Shown here piece by piece: positions 31,125 through 52,580 of a stretch of 64,000 bases of DNA. Origin of the DNA: Paenibacillus lentus. Its GTDB lineage: Bacteria > Bacillota > Bacilli > Paenibacillales > Paenibacillaceae. The stretch is taken from NCBI RefSeq assembly GCF_003931855.1, contig NZ_CP034248.1, positions 2,728,001 through 2,792,000 on the forward strand. Direction: 5' to 3'. Under the pieces are notes generated by a model. The model was given only the letters and a program-made list of their open reading frames with translations, did not search any database and was not told the origin of the DNA. Positions within the stretch are counted from its first letter, which is position 1. The number at the start of each line of letters is the position of its first letter. Made by a program: the position numbers and the translations under genes.

Positions 31125-32255
31125 ATGATGGACACGATCAAAATAGGTATTATCGGTGCTGGACAAATCGGCAAAGCGCATCTGGAAGAGTACGTAAATA
31201 TTCCAGGCGTCGAGGTTATTGCTATATGTGATATAAATCTTGATGAGGCTAAGCGGGTGGCGGCCAAGTACAGCGTATCCAAGGTTTATACCGACTACCG
31301 GGAAATGCTCCAGCAGCAAAAGCTTGATGCCATCGATGTATGTCTTCATAACAACTATCATATGCCGGTGACAATAGCAGCTCTAGAGGCTGGCATGCAT
31401 GTATATTGCGAGAAGCCGATCGCGGGCTCTTATGCCGATGGTCTGAAAATGCTGGAGACCGCTAAGGCTTGCGGCAAGCTGCTGCATATTCAATTAGCGC
31501 ATCTCTTTCATATCGAGACAAGGGTCGCCAAACAATTAATTGATGCAGGCAAGCTAGGCAAGCTGTATCATGCCAGATCCACAGGATTTCGGCGTCGCAA
31601 CCGACCTTATATCGATGGCTATGGCTCTGCGGCGTTTACGAGGAAAGAAACCGCTGGTGGTGGAGCTTTATACGATATGGGGGTATACCATATTGCCCGC
31701 ATGCTCTATTTGATGGGCAATCCGAAAGTAGAGCGGATCGTCGGACGCACGTATCAAGAAATGGCGATGGATGAGGAGCGCAGACTTCGTTCCGGATTCG
31801 ATGTCGAGGAGATGGCCGCTGGATTAGTCTGCCTGGAGGGCGGAATAACGCTGGATATTATCGAGTCCTGGGCGCTGCAGCTCGGCGGCTTGGAGGGCAG
31901 CGCGATCGTCGGATCGGAAGGCGGAATCCGCTTGTCTGGAGCTGTGTCGGACAGGGAAAAGCACGGCTTCAGCTTCCACACGACCATCGCCGATTTGGAC
32001 ATGGATTGCACGATAAATTTGGAGCGGGCAGAGTGGCGGCAGCGGATGCTAAGTCGTTATCCAGATGCCTATATCTCTTCTCAGCACCATTGGATTGCAG
32101 CCCTACAAGGACAGGTGGCGTTGCTGCCCACGGCAGATATCGCACTCAATACTATGCTAATCAGCGAAGGGCTGTATTACTCTCAACAAATAGGGCGTGA
32201 AGTAAGTGCGGAGGAGGTCATACAAGCCTCCAAATCGACTTCAATCGTGCTCTAG
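31125..32255 (+). CDS. Gfo/Idh/MocA-family oxidoreductase
   Basis: The 376-residue protein has an N-terminal Rossmann NAD(P) fold (GIIGAGQIGKAH, 8-19), the EKP motif (CEKPIAG, Lys97) and a C-terminal Gfo/Idh domain containing GGGALYDMGVYHIARML with the conserved Asp and His. The family oxidises or reduces sugars and inositols; the substrate cannot be named. The start could be the ATG at 31125 or 31128, after AGGAGG. Neighbours do not suggest a pathway. Confidence 0.85.
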   Translation: MMDTIKIGIIGAGQIGKAHLEEYVNIPGVEVIAICDINLDEAKRVAAKYSVSKVYTDYREMLQQQKLDAIDVCLHNNYHMPVTIAALEAGMHVYCEKPIAGSYADGLKMLETAKACGKLLHIQLAHLFHIETRVAKQLIDAGKLGKLYHARSTGFRRRNRPYIDGYGSAAFTRKETAGGGALYDMGVYHIARMLYLMGNPKVERIVGRTYQEMAMDEERRLRSGFDVEEMAAGLVCLEGGITLDIIESWALQLGGLEGSAIVGSEGGIRLSGAVSDREKHGFSFHTTIADLDMDCTINLERAEWRQRMLSRYPDAYISSQHHWIAALQGQVALLPTADIALNTMLISEGLYYSQQIGREVSAEEVIQASKSTSIVL

Positions 32256-47203: not shown

Positions 47204-48388
47204 ATGCGTATTTTGCATACGGGAGACTGGCATTTAGGGAGGACACTGGAAGGGCGCAGCCGTTTTAGGGAACAGGAGATGTTCATGGATGAGCTGGTAC
47301 AGCTTTCAAGTGATCAGCAAGTCGACATGATTTTGATGGCTGGCGATGTGTATGATAGCGTAAACCCGCCGGCCGCTGCTGAGGCATTGTTCTACGATAC
47401 GGTGGCCCGGCTAAATGATCAGGGCTGCCAACTTGTTGTCATTGCTGGAAATCATGACCAGCCCGAACGGATTTCCGCTGTTTCTCCGCTTGTTTCGCAG
47501 CGTGGGATTACGCTTGTCGGCCTTCCCTCCTCCCGAAGCGTGACTGTAGATATAGCGCGAAGCGGGGAGCGAGCCGTCATTGCCGCCCTGCCATATCCTT
47601 CGGAATCGAGATTATCCGAGCTGCTGGCCGAAGATGGAGATGAGCGAGAGCTTCGCTTGGCATACAGCGCCAAGGTCGGCAAACTTATGCGGCAATTGGC
47701 TGGGGAGTTCCGGGCGGATACAGTAAACCTTGCGATGAGCCACATTTATGTGCTTGGCGGCGTGGAATCGGACTCCGAGCGTCCAATTCAAGTCGGCGGC
47801 GCTTACACGGTAGATCCTTCAGCTCTGGATGTTGGCGCGCAATATACGGCATTAGGGCATCTGCATCGCCCACAGCTTGTCAAAGGCAGCGGGTTGATTC
47901 GTTATAGCGGTTCTCCGCTTGCCTACAGCTTCTCGGAGGCTGGGCAGGCGAAGTCCGTTATGCTGCTTGATGTAGCGCCAGGAAGTATCCCGGTGACAGA
48001 GGAGCTCCATCTGAGCAGCGGCCGTCCCCTGGTGCGATGGTCATGCCGGGGGGGATTGGAGGAAGCGCATCGCTGGCTGGAAGAGGGACGGGATAGCCAT
48101 GCATTTATTGATTTAGAAATCAGTCTGACCGAAGCGATGTCGATGAGCGAAATTCAGGCACTGCGTAAAGCGCATGAAGGAATTGTGCATATCCGCCCGA
48201 TTTATCCTGGACGTGATGAGGAACAGGCGGTTGCTGCACGCGCCCAAATGCCGGTGCATGAGTTGTTCCGTAAATTTTATCAGCGGCAAAGCGGGGGAGC
48301 GGAGCCAGAGGAAGAATTGGTCGACTTGTTTATGTCGCTTGTAGCGGATGAAGAAGCCGCCGTTCATAAAGAGGAGGAGGAGCTATGA
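47204..48388 (+). CDS. sbcD: Exonuclease subunit SbcD (Mre11 type)
   Basis: The 394-residue metallophosphoesterase has motifs HTGDWHLGR, AGDVYDSVNPP, AGNHDQPER, SHIYVLGG and GHLHRPQ that bind two metals. It is the nuclease partner of SbcC and opens hairpins and DNA ends. The ATG follows GGGGGAG, and the end overlaps sbcC by four bases. Confidence 0.95.
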   Translation: MRILHTGDWHLGRTLEGRSRFREQEMFMDELVQLSSDQQVDMILMAGDVYDSVNPPAAAEALFYDTVARLNDQGCQLVVIAGNHDQPERISAVSPLVSQRGITLVGLPSSRSVTVDIARSGERAVIAALPYPSESRLSELLAEDGDERELRLAYSAKVGKLMRQLAGEFRADTVNLAMSHIYVLGGVESDSERPIQVGGAYTVDPSALDVGAQYTALGHLHRPQLVKGSGLIRYSGSPLAYSFSEAGQAKSVMLLDVAPGSIPVTEELHLSSGRPLVRWSCRGGLEEAHRWLEEGRDSHAFIDLEISLTEAMSMSEIQALRKAHEGIVHIRPIYPGRDEEQAVAARAQMPVHELFRKFYQRQSGGAEPEEELVDLFMSLVADEEAAVHKEEEEL

Positions 48389-51300
48389 AGCCGATATCGC
48401 TAAAGCTATCCGGCCTGCAGAGTTATCGAAGCATGCAGGAGATTGATTTTACAGCTCTGTGCGATACGGGGTTGTTTGGGATATTCGGCCCGACTGGAAG
48501 CGGAAAGTCCACGATTCTCGATGCGATTACGCTAGCGATGTATGGTAAAGTAGGCCGTGCCTCGGGAGGAACGCAGGGAATTATGAACCATTCGGAGGAT
48601 TCGTTGTTCGTGGCTTTTACCTTTGAATTGGCATCGGCGCAGGGCGAGGAGCGTTATCGGGTTGAGCGCCGCTTCAAGCGGCAAAACGATATTTCGGTCA
48701 GCAACACGATTAGTCGATTCATCGAAATATCACCTGAAGGCGAAAAGGTTGTGGCTGATAAACTGGCCGATGTGACGCGCTGCGTGGAAGAGAAAATTGG
48801 GCTGAAGATGGATGATTTTACGCGGGCAGTCGTCCTTCCCCAGGGTAAATTCGCTGAGTTTCTCTCGCTCAAGGGGGCGGAGCGCAGAGCGATGCTGCAG
48901 CGTCTGTTTCACTTGGAAAAATATGGCGATTTACTTGCTCAGAAACTGAGCCGTAAAGTGAAGGAGAACGATCAAGCGCATAAAGAGCTTGCTGCAGAGC
49001 AGCAGGGACTGGGCGACGCCTCGGAGACTGCGCTGCGCGAGGCGGAGGCTGCGCTGAAGGCGGCCGCGGCATTGGCCGAGGCGCGTCGGCGCGAGCTTGT
49101 CGAGGCGCAGCAGCGCAGCGAGAAGCTCGCCAAGGTGCGCGAGCTTAGCCTCGAGCGCAGCGCGCGTGCCGCGCAGCTCGCCAAGGTGCGCGAGCGCGAT
49201 GGCGCCGTCGCCGAGCTGGAGGCGCGGCTTGCGGCCGCTGCTGCTGCGGAGCGGATCAGGCCGACGCTGGCGGCCTGGAAGGAAGCGCAGCAGCTTGCCG
49301 CTTCGCGAGCGGCGGCCGCAGGACAGGCTCGCGAGGCCGCTGCGGTGGCGGCGGAGAGCGCCCGCGCGGCGACGGAGGCGGCTGAAGCGGCCGCGGCTGA
49401 GCTTGGGCGCGAGGAGCCTGTGCTGCTGCTCCGCATGGATCAGCTCGAGCAGGCGAAGGTGCTGCAGGCGGAATGCGATGAACTGCAAGCGGAAGTGAAG
49501 CAACTGCAAGCTAAGCGTGAGCAGGGAAGTGAGCAGCACCGTCAGCTCGGCGAAGAGCTGGGCAAGCAGGAGCAGCTGCTAGCCAAGGCGCAGCAGCGCA
49601 AGCAGGAGCTGGAGGAGCGGTTGAAGCAGAACGAGGTGAAGGCCTCCGATCGCAGACACATCCAAGATGCGCTTTCCCGGCAGCAAAGAATAAATAATGC
49701 TCGTGAGGCTCTGAATAAGGCCGAAACGGATGAGCATAAGCATTTGCAGCAGTCTACAGAGGTTAACACCCGCCTGGAGACGCTGATCAAAGAGGAAGCA
49801 AGGAATATAGAAGAGCGTCAAGAGCTAATCGGCAAGGCTTGGCAAGTGAAGGAGAGGTTGGCAGGGCTTAAAGCTGCGACGATTGGACTTGAAGAACGAA
49901 TAGAGCTCCATGACACAGCGTTGAGGCGCTTCGCTAAAGAACGGGACGAGCATCAGTGGTCCTTGCGATTAGCCGAGGCGCTAAGCAGTGGGCAACCATG
50001 CCCGGTATGCGGCTCCACTGAGCACCCGTTACCAGCGGCTCCAAATACAGATACAAGCGGCCTTCAATTAGGTGAGTCAGAACTGGAGAAGGTCAGAGTC
50101 CTGTTAGCACAGGCACGCGATCTCCGCTACGAGGTGTCCAGAGATTCGGATGCATACAGCAGTATGTTAAGTACGATAGAGGCTCAGGTTGGGAATCAGG
50201 CTCATGCTTCAAACCAGGAGCAAGGTGATTTCGCTCTTTTTGCGGCATATCAGGAAGCTGCAGCATCGCGTTCCCTTGAAATCCCTGCATTGCAGCCCAT
50301 TACTTCTGCTGATGCAGTAGATACACACCAAGTAGATTTGATTATGGAATCTCCTGAAGCAATAACTGTATTGGTACAGCAATATGAAAGCTTGAAGAAC
50401 GAGCAGGCTGATTGGCGCGATGAGTTCGATGCTATTGAGAAACAAGCTCAATCATTACATCATAAATTAGCTGAAATACAGAGCAAGCTGGCCACGGCTA
50501 GGGCAGAGGCGGCCTCGGCTGCCACGTTGGCCGAACAGTCTCGTCAAACCTGTCTGGCATGCCGGGATGACCTTGCTAAACTAGTTCAGGAATGGGAGGA
50601 AGAGCATCCTGGTTTTTCTCCTGAGGAAGCAGTAAGCCGAATGGAACAAATTCACGAACGCGACCAGATCACGGAGGAGATCAAGCAACGTTTGCTTCTT
50701 AGCATACCTTTTATCGAGGAGAAGACAGCGAAGATCGTTCAGTTACAGCGTGAAATCACCGAACTCGATAAATTATTGCTGCAATGGGAAGTTCAACTCC
50801 AGGGCAAAGAGGATTTGCTCCGTGATAAAAAGGCAAGGCTCACGACGTGGATCGGTGAGGAATCCGTCGAAATTCTACTACAGAAAACTCGACAGCGCAT
50901 TGAGTTGCTGCGGACAAGGGCCGAAGCAAGCAAGCAGCGTCAATCAGCAGCGGAGATAGAACGTCAACGGCTGAGTCAGGAAGATGTGCTGGCGCAGCAA
51001 GCTGCCTTGGCCGCTCAGGAGCAGGAAGCGAAGCAGCTGGAGCAGTGGCAGGCAGAATTGGCAGCTTCTCCATTCGATCATGAACAGCAAGTCTCGGAGG
51101 CGCTCATGGACGGGGAGCAGATGAAGTCCCTGGAGCAGCAAATTCAATCGCATCGGGATGCCGAGCGAGAGCTGGTGATTAATCTCAAGGAGCTAGAGGC
51201 TAAGCTGGAAGGCCGTAATGTAACGGAAGAGGAGTGGCAGGAGTGCAGCGAAGCCTTACGATTGGCCAAAGAGCAGGACGAGGCTGCATTGCAACTGAAG

Positions 51301-51900
51301 GCAAGGACACAGCGAGATTTAGAGGATCTTGAAAAGAGGCATATCCGCTGGCAGGAGCTCGAGGGAGCTCGATTGAAGCGAGTGCATGAGGCTGAATTGC
51401 TTGCAAAGCTTCAATCTTCTCTCCGGGGGAATGCATTCGTGGAGTATGTAGCGGAAGAGCAGTTGATGAATGTCAGCCAGGCCGCCTCACAGCGGCTGCG
51501 ATTTCTGACGAACCAGAGGTATGCGCTGGAGTGCGATTCCGGTGGCGGATTCGTGATTCGCGACGATGCTAATGGCGGAGTAAAGCGGCCCGTAGCTACT
51601 CTGTCAGGCGGAGAGACATTCCTTACTTCCCTGGCCCTAGCATTGGCTCTATCCGCGCAAATACAGCTTCGCGGCCAGTATCCGCTACAGTTTTTCTTCT
51701 TGGATGAAGGCTTTGGAACACTGGATCCAGAGCTGCTGGATACGGTTATAACTTCTTTAGAACACCTTCATCACGACCATCTGTCCGTCGGAATTATTAG
51801 TCACGTGGCTGAGCTTCGCGCTAGATTGGCCCGTAAGCTGATCGTCATCCCTGCAGAAAGCGGTGGCGAGGGCTCGCGGGTTATGCTGGAGAGCTTGTAG
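48385..51900 (+). CDS. sbcC: Exonuclease subunit SbcC (Rad50 type)
   Basis: The 1171-residue SMC-like ATPase has Walker A GPTGSGKSTILDA (about 36-48), two long coiled coils around the zinc hook CPVC (in GQPCPVCGSTEHPL, near residue 540), and the C-terminal signature LSGGETFLTSLALALALS with Walker B FFLDEGFG. Residues about 210-355 are an Ala/Arg/Glu-rich coiled coil encoded by strikingly GC-rich DNA (about 49010-49450). It tethers ends while SbcD cuts. Confidence 0.95.
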   Translation: MKPISLKLSGLQSYRSMQEIDFTALCDTGLFGIFGPTGSGKSTILDAITLAMYGKVGRASGGTQGIMNHSEDSLFVAFTFELASAQGEERYRVERRFKRQNDISVSNTISRFIEISPEGEKVVADKLADVTRCVEEKIGLKMDDFTRAVVLPQGKFAEFLSLKGAERRAMLQRLFHLEKYGDLLAQKLSRKVKENDQAHKELAAEQQGLGDASETALREAEAALKAAAALAEARRRELVEAQQRSEKLAKVRELSLERSARAAQLAKVRERDGAVAELEARLAAAAAAERIRPTLAAWKEAQQLAASRAAAAGQAREAAAVAAESARAATEAAEAAAAELGREEPVLLLRMDQLEQAKVLQAECDELQAEVKQLQAKREQGSEQHRQLGEELGKQEQLLAKAQQRKQELEERLKQNEVKASDRRHIQDALSRQQRINNAREALNKAETDEHKHLQQSTEVNTRLETLIKEEARNIEERQELIGKAWQVKERLAGLKAATIGLEERIELHDTALRRFAKERDEHQWSLRLAEALSSGQPCPVCGSTEHPLPAAPNTDTSGLQLGESELEKVRVLLAQARDLRYEVSRDSDAYSSMLSTIEAQVGNQAHASNQEQGDFALFAAYQEAAASRSLEIPALQPITSADAVDTHQVDLIMESPEAITVLVQQYESLKNEQADWRDEFDAIEKQAQSLHHKLAEIQSKLATARAEAASAATLAEQSRQTCLACRDDLAKLVQEWEEEHPGFSPEEAVSRMEQIHERDQITEEIKQRLLLSIPFIEEKTAKIVQLQREITELDKLLLQWEVQLQGKEDLLRDKKARLTTWIGEESVEILLQKTRQRIELLRTRAEASKQRQSAAEIERQRLSQEDVLAQQAALAAQEQEAKQLEQWQAELAASPFDHEQQVSEALMDGEQMKSLEQQIQSHRDAERELVINLKELEAKLEGRNVTEEEWQECSEALRLAKEQDEAALQLKARTQRDLEDLEKRHIRWQELEGARLKRVHEAELLAKLQSSLRGNAFVEYVAEEQLMNVSQAASQRLRFLTNQRYALECDSGGGFVIRDDANGGVKRPVATLSGGETFLTSLALALALSAQIQLRGQYPLQFFFLDEGFGTLDPELLDTVITSLEHLHHDHLSVGIISHVAELRARLARKLIVIPAESGGEGSRVMLESL
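49124..49195 (+). repeat. Direct repeat inside sbcC coiled coil
   Basis: The same 21-base segment occurs at 49124-49144 and 49175-49195, 51 bases apart (17 codons, in frame). The flanks are also similar, so a 51-base unit appears to have been duplicated and then diverged. It encodes LAKVRE twice. Confidence 0.75.
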
Positions 51901-51997
51901 CAGAAGGCCAGCAGATGGAAAGTTTTTATTAAGAAGAGACAACTATTTAACTCGAATTATTATGATTAAAAAAAGGCGTAAAACAATTTCGTGAAAG

Positions 51998-52046
51998 CGT
52001 GATGTACATCACAGATACAGTTTCATCCGGCTGTTATACTACAGTT
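51998..52046 (+). promoter_or_regulatory. CRP/FNR-type site and extended -10 promoter
   Basis: CGTGATGTACATCACA (51998-52013) contains a perfect 14-bp palindrome and matches TGTGA-N6-TCACA at nine of ten positions. TGTTATACT (52032-52040) is an extended -10 with no good -35. If transcription starts 7 bases after the hexamer (52047), the palindrome is centred at -41.5, the standard class II activation position for FNR and CRP. A Rex-type site is an alternative reading. Confidence 0.6.
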
Positions 52047-52166
52047 AGCCGACATCATTTTGCAAGCACCCCGTCGGACGTATTGGTGACAGAGACTCTT
52101 TTGGGTCCAATACGTCCGTACGATCAGCGAACTCGTTCTCGAGGGAGCTGGGTGCTTCTTTTTTTT
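52047..52166 (+). ncRNA. Candidate small structured RNA or leader, about 120 nt
   Basis: A closing helix AAGCACCC (52064-52071) with GGGTGCTT (52150-52157) encloses two arms: CGGACGTATTGG (52075-52086) with CCAATACGTCCG (52107-52118), and CAGC-gaa-CTCG with CGAG-gga-GCTG (52125-52150). Eight T follow at 52159-52166. The 5' part CCGAC (52049-52053) can alternatively pair with GTCGG (52073-52077), competing with the first arm. It resembles an independent terminated sRNA, or a conditional leader of the HIT gene 49 bases on. I recognise no known family. Confidence 0.5.
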
Positions 52167-52214
52167 GCTAATTTTAGGTATGATGGTACATATATATTCG
52201 TAGGAGGCATTGAA

Positions 52215-52580
52215 ATGGAAAATTGTTTGTTTTGCAAAATTGCGAATGGATCCGTCCCATCAAACAAAGTGTACGAAGATGATACTTTTCTCGTGTTCCA
52301 TGATATTCAGCCGGCAGCGCCCACACATGTGCTAATTATTCCCAAAAAACATATTGCAACGATGAATGATGTGGGGCCTGAGGATTATGCAATGATCGGA
52401 GAATTACATCGTGTAGCCCAGGAGGCGGCGAAAAAGCTGGGGGTTGCCGAGACGGGCTATCGCCTCATCAATAACTGCGGCCCTGACAGTGGACAAGCAG
52501 TCTATCATATTCACTACCATTTGATAGGCGGAGCGAAACTTGGTGCGCTTGTTCAAAGTTCCGATTCACACGCCATCTAA
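52215..52580 (+). CDS. HIT-family nucleotide-binding protein (Hint type)
   Basis: The 121-residue protein starts MENCLFCKIANGSVPSNKVY and has the histidine triad H-I-H-Y-H in YHIHYHLIGG near residue 101. It hydrolyses or binds nucleoside phosphoramidates and dinucleotides. The ATG at 52215 follows TAGGAGG; the frame is open for 72 codons upstream, but these cover the structured RNA and do not look coding. Confidence 0.93.
   Translation: MENCLFCKIANGSVPSNKVYEDDTFLVFHDIQPAAPTHVLIIPKKHIATMNDVGPEDYAMIGELHRVAQEAAKKLGVAETGYRLINNCGPDSGQAVYHIHYHLIGGAKLGALVQSSDSHAI

Follow-up and report, generated by a model that had tools for sequence, protein, structure and literature searches.

A probable low-oxygen small RNA of Paenibacillus whose free 5′ end appears suited to pairing with the front end of the fbaA mRNA

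Results

Locus and predicted promoter

The window is a stretch of 64,000 nucleotides from Paenibacillus lentus (contig NZ_CP034248.1, positions 2,728,001 to 2,792,000, forward strand). The element described here occupies positions 51998-52166 of the window, between the end of sbcC (48385-51900) and a HIT-domain gene (52215-52580), and is present as a single copy in its genome. Its features are collected in Table 1.

Table 1. Features of the element and its downstream neighbour (window positions)
Feature	Position	Strand	Basis or remark
CRP/FNR-type palindrome CGTGATGTACATCACA	51998..52013	+	Centre 52005.5 = −41.5, class II position
Extended −10 TGTTATACT	52032..52040	+	Sequence; divergent genera compared
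Predicted sRNA, 120 nt	52047..52166	+	Fold and covariance model; both ends predicted
5′ tail AGCCGACATCATTTTGC	52047..52063	+	Single-stranded in fold; proposed region of pairing with the fbaA mRNA 5′ end
Closing helix, 5′ strand AAGCACCC	52064..52071	+	Fold, covariation
Arm 1, 12-bp helix CGGACGTATTGG/CCAATACGTCCG	52075..52118	+	Fold; two-sided changes in 5/12 pairs
Arm 2, 3x3 internal loop	52125..52150	+	Variable sequence; hairpin kept in individual folds
Intrinsic terminator: closing helix 3′ strand GGGTGCTT and U tract	52150..52166	+	Sequence, fold
TATGAT, candidate −10 of the HIT gene's own promoter	52179..52184	+	Sequence; inference
HIT-family gene, downstream neighbour, outside the unit	52215..52580	+	

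An earlier note on this DNA had described a near-perfect CRP/FNR palindrome exactly 41.5 bp before the predicted start, an extended −10 without a −35, and a transcript of about 120 nt ending in T8, and these readings hold. With the start predicted at A52047, 7 nt after the extended −10, the palindrome is centred at exactly −41.5; no −35 hexamer was seen in the promoter upstream of A52047, and the 120-nt RNA closes with T8 at 52159-52166. The arrangement shares with class II CRP/FNR-dependent promoters a TGTGA-N6-TCACA-like palindrome centred at −41.5, an extended −10 and no visible −35, and differs from them in driving a non-coding RNA and in the unusual conservation of ACAG motifs in its spacer. 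These motifs, CACAGATACAG and TATACTACAG, lie between palindrome and start (52010-52046) and are conserved beyond the needs of an extended −10; a second factor may bind there.

The palindrome is found at −41.5 in 134 of 136 loci, comprising 45 from relatives and 91 from a public scan, two sets that overlap. The exceptions are L058, where the position falls past the end of the locus, and L052, which has an imperfect half-site in the same place. After duplicates are merged and L058 dropped, 100 of 101 distinct sequences have this geometry, measured relative to the predicted start. In most divergent genera TGTTATAnTACAG is retained, with the variants TGTTATCATACAG in L232 and TGTTACACTACAG in L229.

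Neither neighbouring gene is tightly fixed, because both distances vary: the end of sbcC, seen in 102 of 136 loci, is 58 to 5448 bp upstream, and the HIT gene, seen in 117 of 136, lies 168 to 3879 bp downstream of +1. Constant close linkage, as expected of a cis-attenuator of the HIT gene, is thus absent, and the promoter-like GGTATGAT, or a similar sequence before the HIT gene, is kept in many relatives and persists in G019, a genome without the RNA. The attenuator offered as an alternative in the earlier note is therefore rejected in favour of a free-standing sRNA.

RNA structure and coding potential

The three-way junction proposed earlier, with a closing helix, a 12-bp arm and an arm with a 3x3 internal loop, is reproduced by the fold of 52047-52175, which has an energy of −47.9 kcal/mol (z −4.5) that none of 200 shuffled sequences equals. 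The closing helix pairs AAGCACC(C) with (G)GGTGCTT, and arm 1 pairs 52075-52086 with 52107-52118 over 12 bp. Covariation was assessed in a 36-row alignment over 20 pairs, those of the closing helix and of arm 1, since arm 2 cannot be aligned. In this alignment 97.1% of cells are paired, compared with 31-44% in slid registers, and two-sided changes affect six pairs and 23 cells; shuffles average 4.9 such cells, and none of 500 reaches 23. The closing helix with two arms is present in all 43 folded homologues, as judged by eye.

No part of the RNA is as constant as the tail (AGCCGACAU), which is nearly unchanged while the arms diverge and within which AGCCGACA is invariant in the 36-row alignment. 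It is mostly unpaired in the folds of individual members, a few of which form a small tail hairpin.

An open frame (51999-52580) crosses the element into the HIT gene. A protein-coding function was considered and rejected, in agreement with the earlier statement that no protein gene explains the element: the lengths of the homologous RNAs differ by values not divisible by three, and the longest complete ORF within each of 43 homologues has 0 to 31 aa. Judged by sequence features, the element has its own promoter and intrinsic terminator and lacks a conserved ORF, as expected of a trans-acting sRNA.

Distribution and novelty

Strong DNA matches (E<1e-12) occur in 43 of 146 genomes, its own included, and these comprise 36 of the 40 genomes of the same genus and seven in two sister genera, all with the site at −41.5. 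Covariance model R1, built on the RNA alone, extends the family to 175 of the order's 392 genomes, spread over 5 of 49 genera, with one copy per genome among the matches listed. A pattern scan of public named genomes returned 91 stretches, and the 80 listed are from Paenibacillus or Fontibacillus with one exception, labelled Bacillus sp. FJAT-27264. In the divergent members the arms have changed almost wholly, and genus g6 has an extra arm; what is kept is the palindrome, the TGTTATAnTACAG-like −10 region, GCCGACA, the closing helix and the U tract. Automatic parsing covered 16 of the 17 divergent members, all of which have the −41.5 site and the junction, some with one degenerate half-site; the 17th, L232, was read by eye only.

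Rfam gave no match in the window at the gathering score and none in 51900-52260 at E<=5, RoxS/RsaE included; the RNA is conserved and matches no Rfam family. No report of it, or of an fbaA-targeting sRNA in Paenibacillus, was recognised in the literature covered, mainly titles and the openings of abstracts. An RNA-seq study of P. riograndensis describes 27 intergenic small RNAs (PMC5670726), and the present RNA may be among them.

The Fnr regulator

Of three PF00325 proteins in the genome, one is a candidate Fnr, with cNMP-binding, Crp HTH and Crp domains (PF00027, PF13545 and PF00325 over cut-off) and the C-terminus ICHCELCPNEIC. The protein ends in ICHCELCPNEICRI and so has C-terminal cysteines that could hold an Fe-S cluster, as in a Bacillus-type Fnr; we take this ending to be the one expected of that type, whose cluster ligation is known from B. 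subtilis. None of the NCBIfam Fnr models scores the candidate over its own cut-off. The pattern TGTGAN6TCACA occurs at 14 places in the genome compared with two for the reversed control pattern, and some of these sites adjoin genes matching cydA (cytochrome bd oxidase), nirB, pfl/adhE and an NADH oxidase-like gene, several of these gene matches being below the curated cut-off and some truncated.

A match to Fnr is present in 78 of 80 genomes, including every sRNA carrier among the 80, and the two genomes without it (G069 and G073) also lack the sRNA. At least seven genomes have Fnr but yield nothing for the sRNA below E 0.2 (G002, G017, G019, G028, G046, G076 and G086). For strain WLY78 a 6.84-fold increase of the fnr transcript is reported under N2-fixing conditions (PMC4774088). 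The conserved site, spacing, predicted start and fold, together with an Fnr, an Fnr-like regulon and the lack of any Rfam match, support the earlier proposal of a three-way-junction sRNA under an FNR-type regulator, which would act as its activator.

Complementarity of the tail to fbaA

The observation that is new relative to the earlier note is the complementarity of the tail to the start of the mRNA for class II fructose-bisphosphate aldolase, fbaA (TIGR01859 and PF01116 over cut-off). The gene was found by a seed scan of this genome, and its leaders were then read in 30 sRNA-bearing genomes, 24 from the first parse and the rest by position. TGTCGGC is present in the fbaA leader of 23 of the 30 genomes (22 of 29 without the discovery genome), in five genera, and TGTCGG in 26. 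The site comes just after the fbaA −10 in this genome and lies within ~16-18 nt of the predicted mRNA 5′ end, also in genus g6, whose aldolase is 53-54% identical; the predicted mRNA start is a few nucleotides upstream of AUGUCGGCU. In this genome the pairing covers about −52 to −39 from the fbaA start codon.

Duplexes between each genome's own tail and own fbaA leader range from −10.3 to −22.3 kcal/mol over the 30 genomes. No shuffled leader out of 300 matches the own duplex in 21 of them, and 2 to 17 of 300 do so in the remaining nine, including this genome (10/300). When the tail of this genome is set against 1234 leaders drawn from the loci collected here, fbaA included, fbaA leaders make up 13 of the best 15, and 43 leaders (3.5%, other fbaA leaders among these) reach this genome's duplex value. 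The RNA thus combines a conserved, accessible seed with a conserved complementary site in a candidate target, with exceptions in genus g7 (three of three genomes) and in G366, where pairing is weak despite the sRNA (−10.3 to −11.2).

The controls were three sRNA-less genomes that have fbaA, namely G019, G017 and G086. They number three because fbaA was not found at the guessed position in six further genomes (G043, G050, G051, G066, G080 and G084). The site is decayed in all three, reading GAGAATCGGGTA in G019 and G017 and GAGTATCGGCT in G086, while most carriers read GAATGTCGGCTA or GATGTCGGCT. The covariance model finds no match in G019 or G017 at E up to 1 and one in G086 at E 0.23, with no promoter nearby. 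The sbcC-HIT gap of G019 retains a terminator relic only (L461:2476-2652), with palindrome, promoter and tail gone and GGTATGAT remaining; a reading of the same gap in G086 found nothing sRNA-like. Paired with the 30 tails, the control leaders average −9.6 (G019), −9.8 (G017) and −12.9 (G086), compared with −11.9 to −19.5 for carriers, and the G086 leader reaches −17.7 with one tail. The two ranges overlap because the leader of carrier G366 averages −11.9. Swapping tails among the 30 genomes gives a mean energy as good in 2677 of 20000 permutations, not significantly worse, and tail and leader therefore do not demonstrably co-vary.

Across the genome as a whole, three of the four scans showed no enrichment of seed sites relative to control patterns. 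The pattern TGTCGGCTT occurs at 52 places and its control at 56 (50 of the former were inspected), TGTCGGCN{0,30}GGAGG at 21 against 19, and GGAGGN{2,32}TGTCGGC at 27 against 29 (start codons checked), while GGAGN{2,16}TGTCGGC occurs at 63 against 44, eight of them an rRNA segment (53 of the 63 inspected). Of the matches followed by a plausible start codon, fbaA is the one that was traced through other genomes.

Complements of the seed or tail were also noted elsewhere. One is at an oxidoreductase gene at window position 31125, and another falls at codons 7-9 of a gene at G000:C1:562092 (L345; G000 is this genome), which is presumably CoA-disulfide reductase-like. A 43-bp tandem repeat at G000:C1:569863-569957 (L144, about 1457-1560), in a stretch without long ORFs, has on its minus strand three copies of ATGTCGGCTT, complementary to the sRNA tail; this is possibly chance, or possibly a sponge.

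Discussion

Going by sequence evidence, the segment 51998-52166 is very probably the gene of a small regulatory RNA made by Paenibacillus when oxygen runs out, and the free 5′ end of this RNA seems designed to take hold of the start of the fbaA mRNA. The reading that is favoured, with fair but far from full confidence, is that of a trans-acting, Fnr-activated sRNA of low oxygen whose tail would pair with the fbaA mRNA and most likely protect its 5′ end. At low oxygen, as promoter geometry, the Fnr gene and its regulon suggest, Fnr would bind the −41.5 palindrome and activate the extended −10 promoter. The product, as conserved sequence and covariation indicate, would be an RNA that begins with an unpaired 5′ tail of ~17 nt, continues into a multi-arm junction and ends in an intrinsic terminator. 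The tail would form an antiparallel duplex with roughly the first 16 nt of the fbaA mRNA and so join the two predicted 5′ ends, and protection of the mRNA from 5′-3′ decay would yield more aldolase and glycolytic flux for fermentation. Protection is held most likely because the site, ~39-52 nt ahead of the start codon, does not reach the ribosome binding site, and the 5′-end pairing together with the likeness to RoxS favours protection and activation of fbaA in low oxygen. The direction of the effect on fbaA is the least certain step of the scheme, its sign being the part that is deduced.

The same pairing evidence would also fit an Fnr-activated sRNA with a repressive effect on fbaA, such as exposure of the mRNA to cleavage, or with a modulating effect only, as sequence alone does not give the sign. 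This is unlikely, in that a site at about −52 to −39 falls outside the usual ribosome footprint and less aldolase under anoxia would make little physiological sense. A similarly low probability is given to an Fnr-activated sRNA that acts chiefly on other mRNAs, the fbaA complementarity being incidental or minor. Such a role would be consistent with the weak pairing in g7 and G366, the non-significant tail swapping and the following of one candidate target alone across genomes, but it sits poorly with a site that is conserved in five genera, is located at the predicted mRNA 5′ end and is decayed in each of the sRNA-less genomes. The two further PF00325 proteins could supply a different activator of the CRP/FNR family, which is improbable given the sites of the same type near classic anaerobic genes in this genome and the Fnr match in every carrier among the 80 genomes.

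An action of the tail on ribosomes is very improbable. The tail segment AGCCGACAUC is exactly antisense to GAUGUCGGCU, found at eight places (G000:C1:864924-864948 and seven more) that we take to be 23S rRNA, in the peptidyl-transferase region by numbering. A chance match in ~4.5 kb of rRNA is estimated at near 0.4% for a 10-mer and 7% for an 8-mer. The tails of g7 and two tails of g6 match less, and the rRNA region is buried in mature subunits; the match to this 10-nt segment is probably coincidental. That the RNA is a leader or attenuator of the HIT gene can be put aside as barely credible, for although that gene follows on the same strand in all 117 loci where it is seen and begins 168 nt after +1 here, it is more than 1000 bp off in 13 of the 117 and more than 3300 bp off in five (L068, L081, L114, L124 and L136), and a strong terminator followed by a separate promoter-like sequence stands between.

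Under the favoured reading of an Fnr-activated sRNA that protects the fbaA mRNA, two known RNAs invite comparison. FnrS of enterobacteria is under direct FNR control, is made in anoxia and shifts metabolism. The Paenibacillus RNA would resemble it in each of these respects and differs in having no Rfam match, a Gram-positive host, a Bacillus-type Fnr and a different proposed target. RoxS/RsaE of Bacillus and Staphylococcus is likewise a redox-linked Firmicute sRNA, and the Paenibacillus RNA has no Rfam match to it. RoxS is activated by ResD and pairs by a C-rich region, whereas the Paenibacillus RNA has a CRP/FNR-type site and would pair by its 5′ tail. RoxS is further reported to be repressed by Rex and to activate yflS by covering the 5′ end of its mRNA (PMC5419742). 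By analogy, the Paenibacillus RNA is perhaps a case of Fnr-activated control of glycolysis in which an mRNA 5′ end is shielded as RoxS does for yflS.

Taken as a whole, the RNA may, as a tentative proposal that falls somewhat short of an even chance, represent an undescribed Gram-positive sRNA family that is activated directly by Fnr and couples oxygen to glycolytic flux: its 5′ end would pair with that of the aldolase mRNA and shield it from 5′-3′ exonuclease decay. Since the sRNA and its target site decay jointly in relatives, the claim is directly testable. If true, a large genus used in agriculture and nitrogen-fixation work would gain an oxygen-sensing sRNA, with a gene of central carbon metabolism as its named target, and the finding would provide a second natural case, after RoxS and yflS, of a Firmicute sRNA that activates by covering an mRNA 5′ end.
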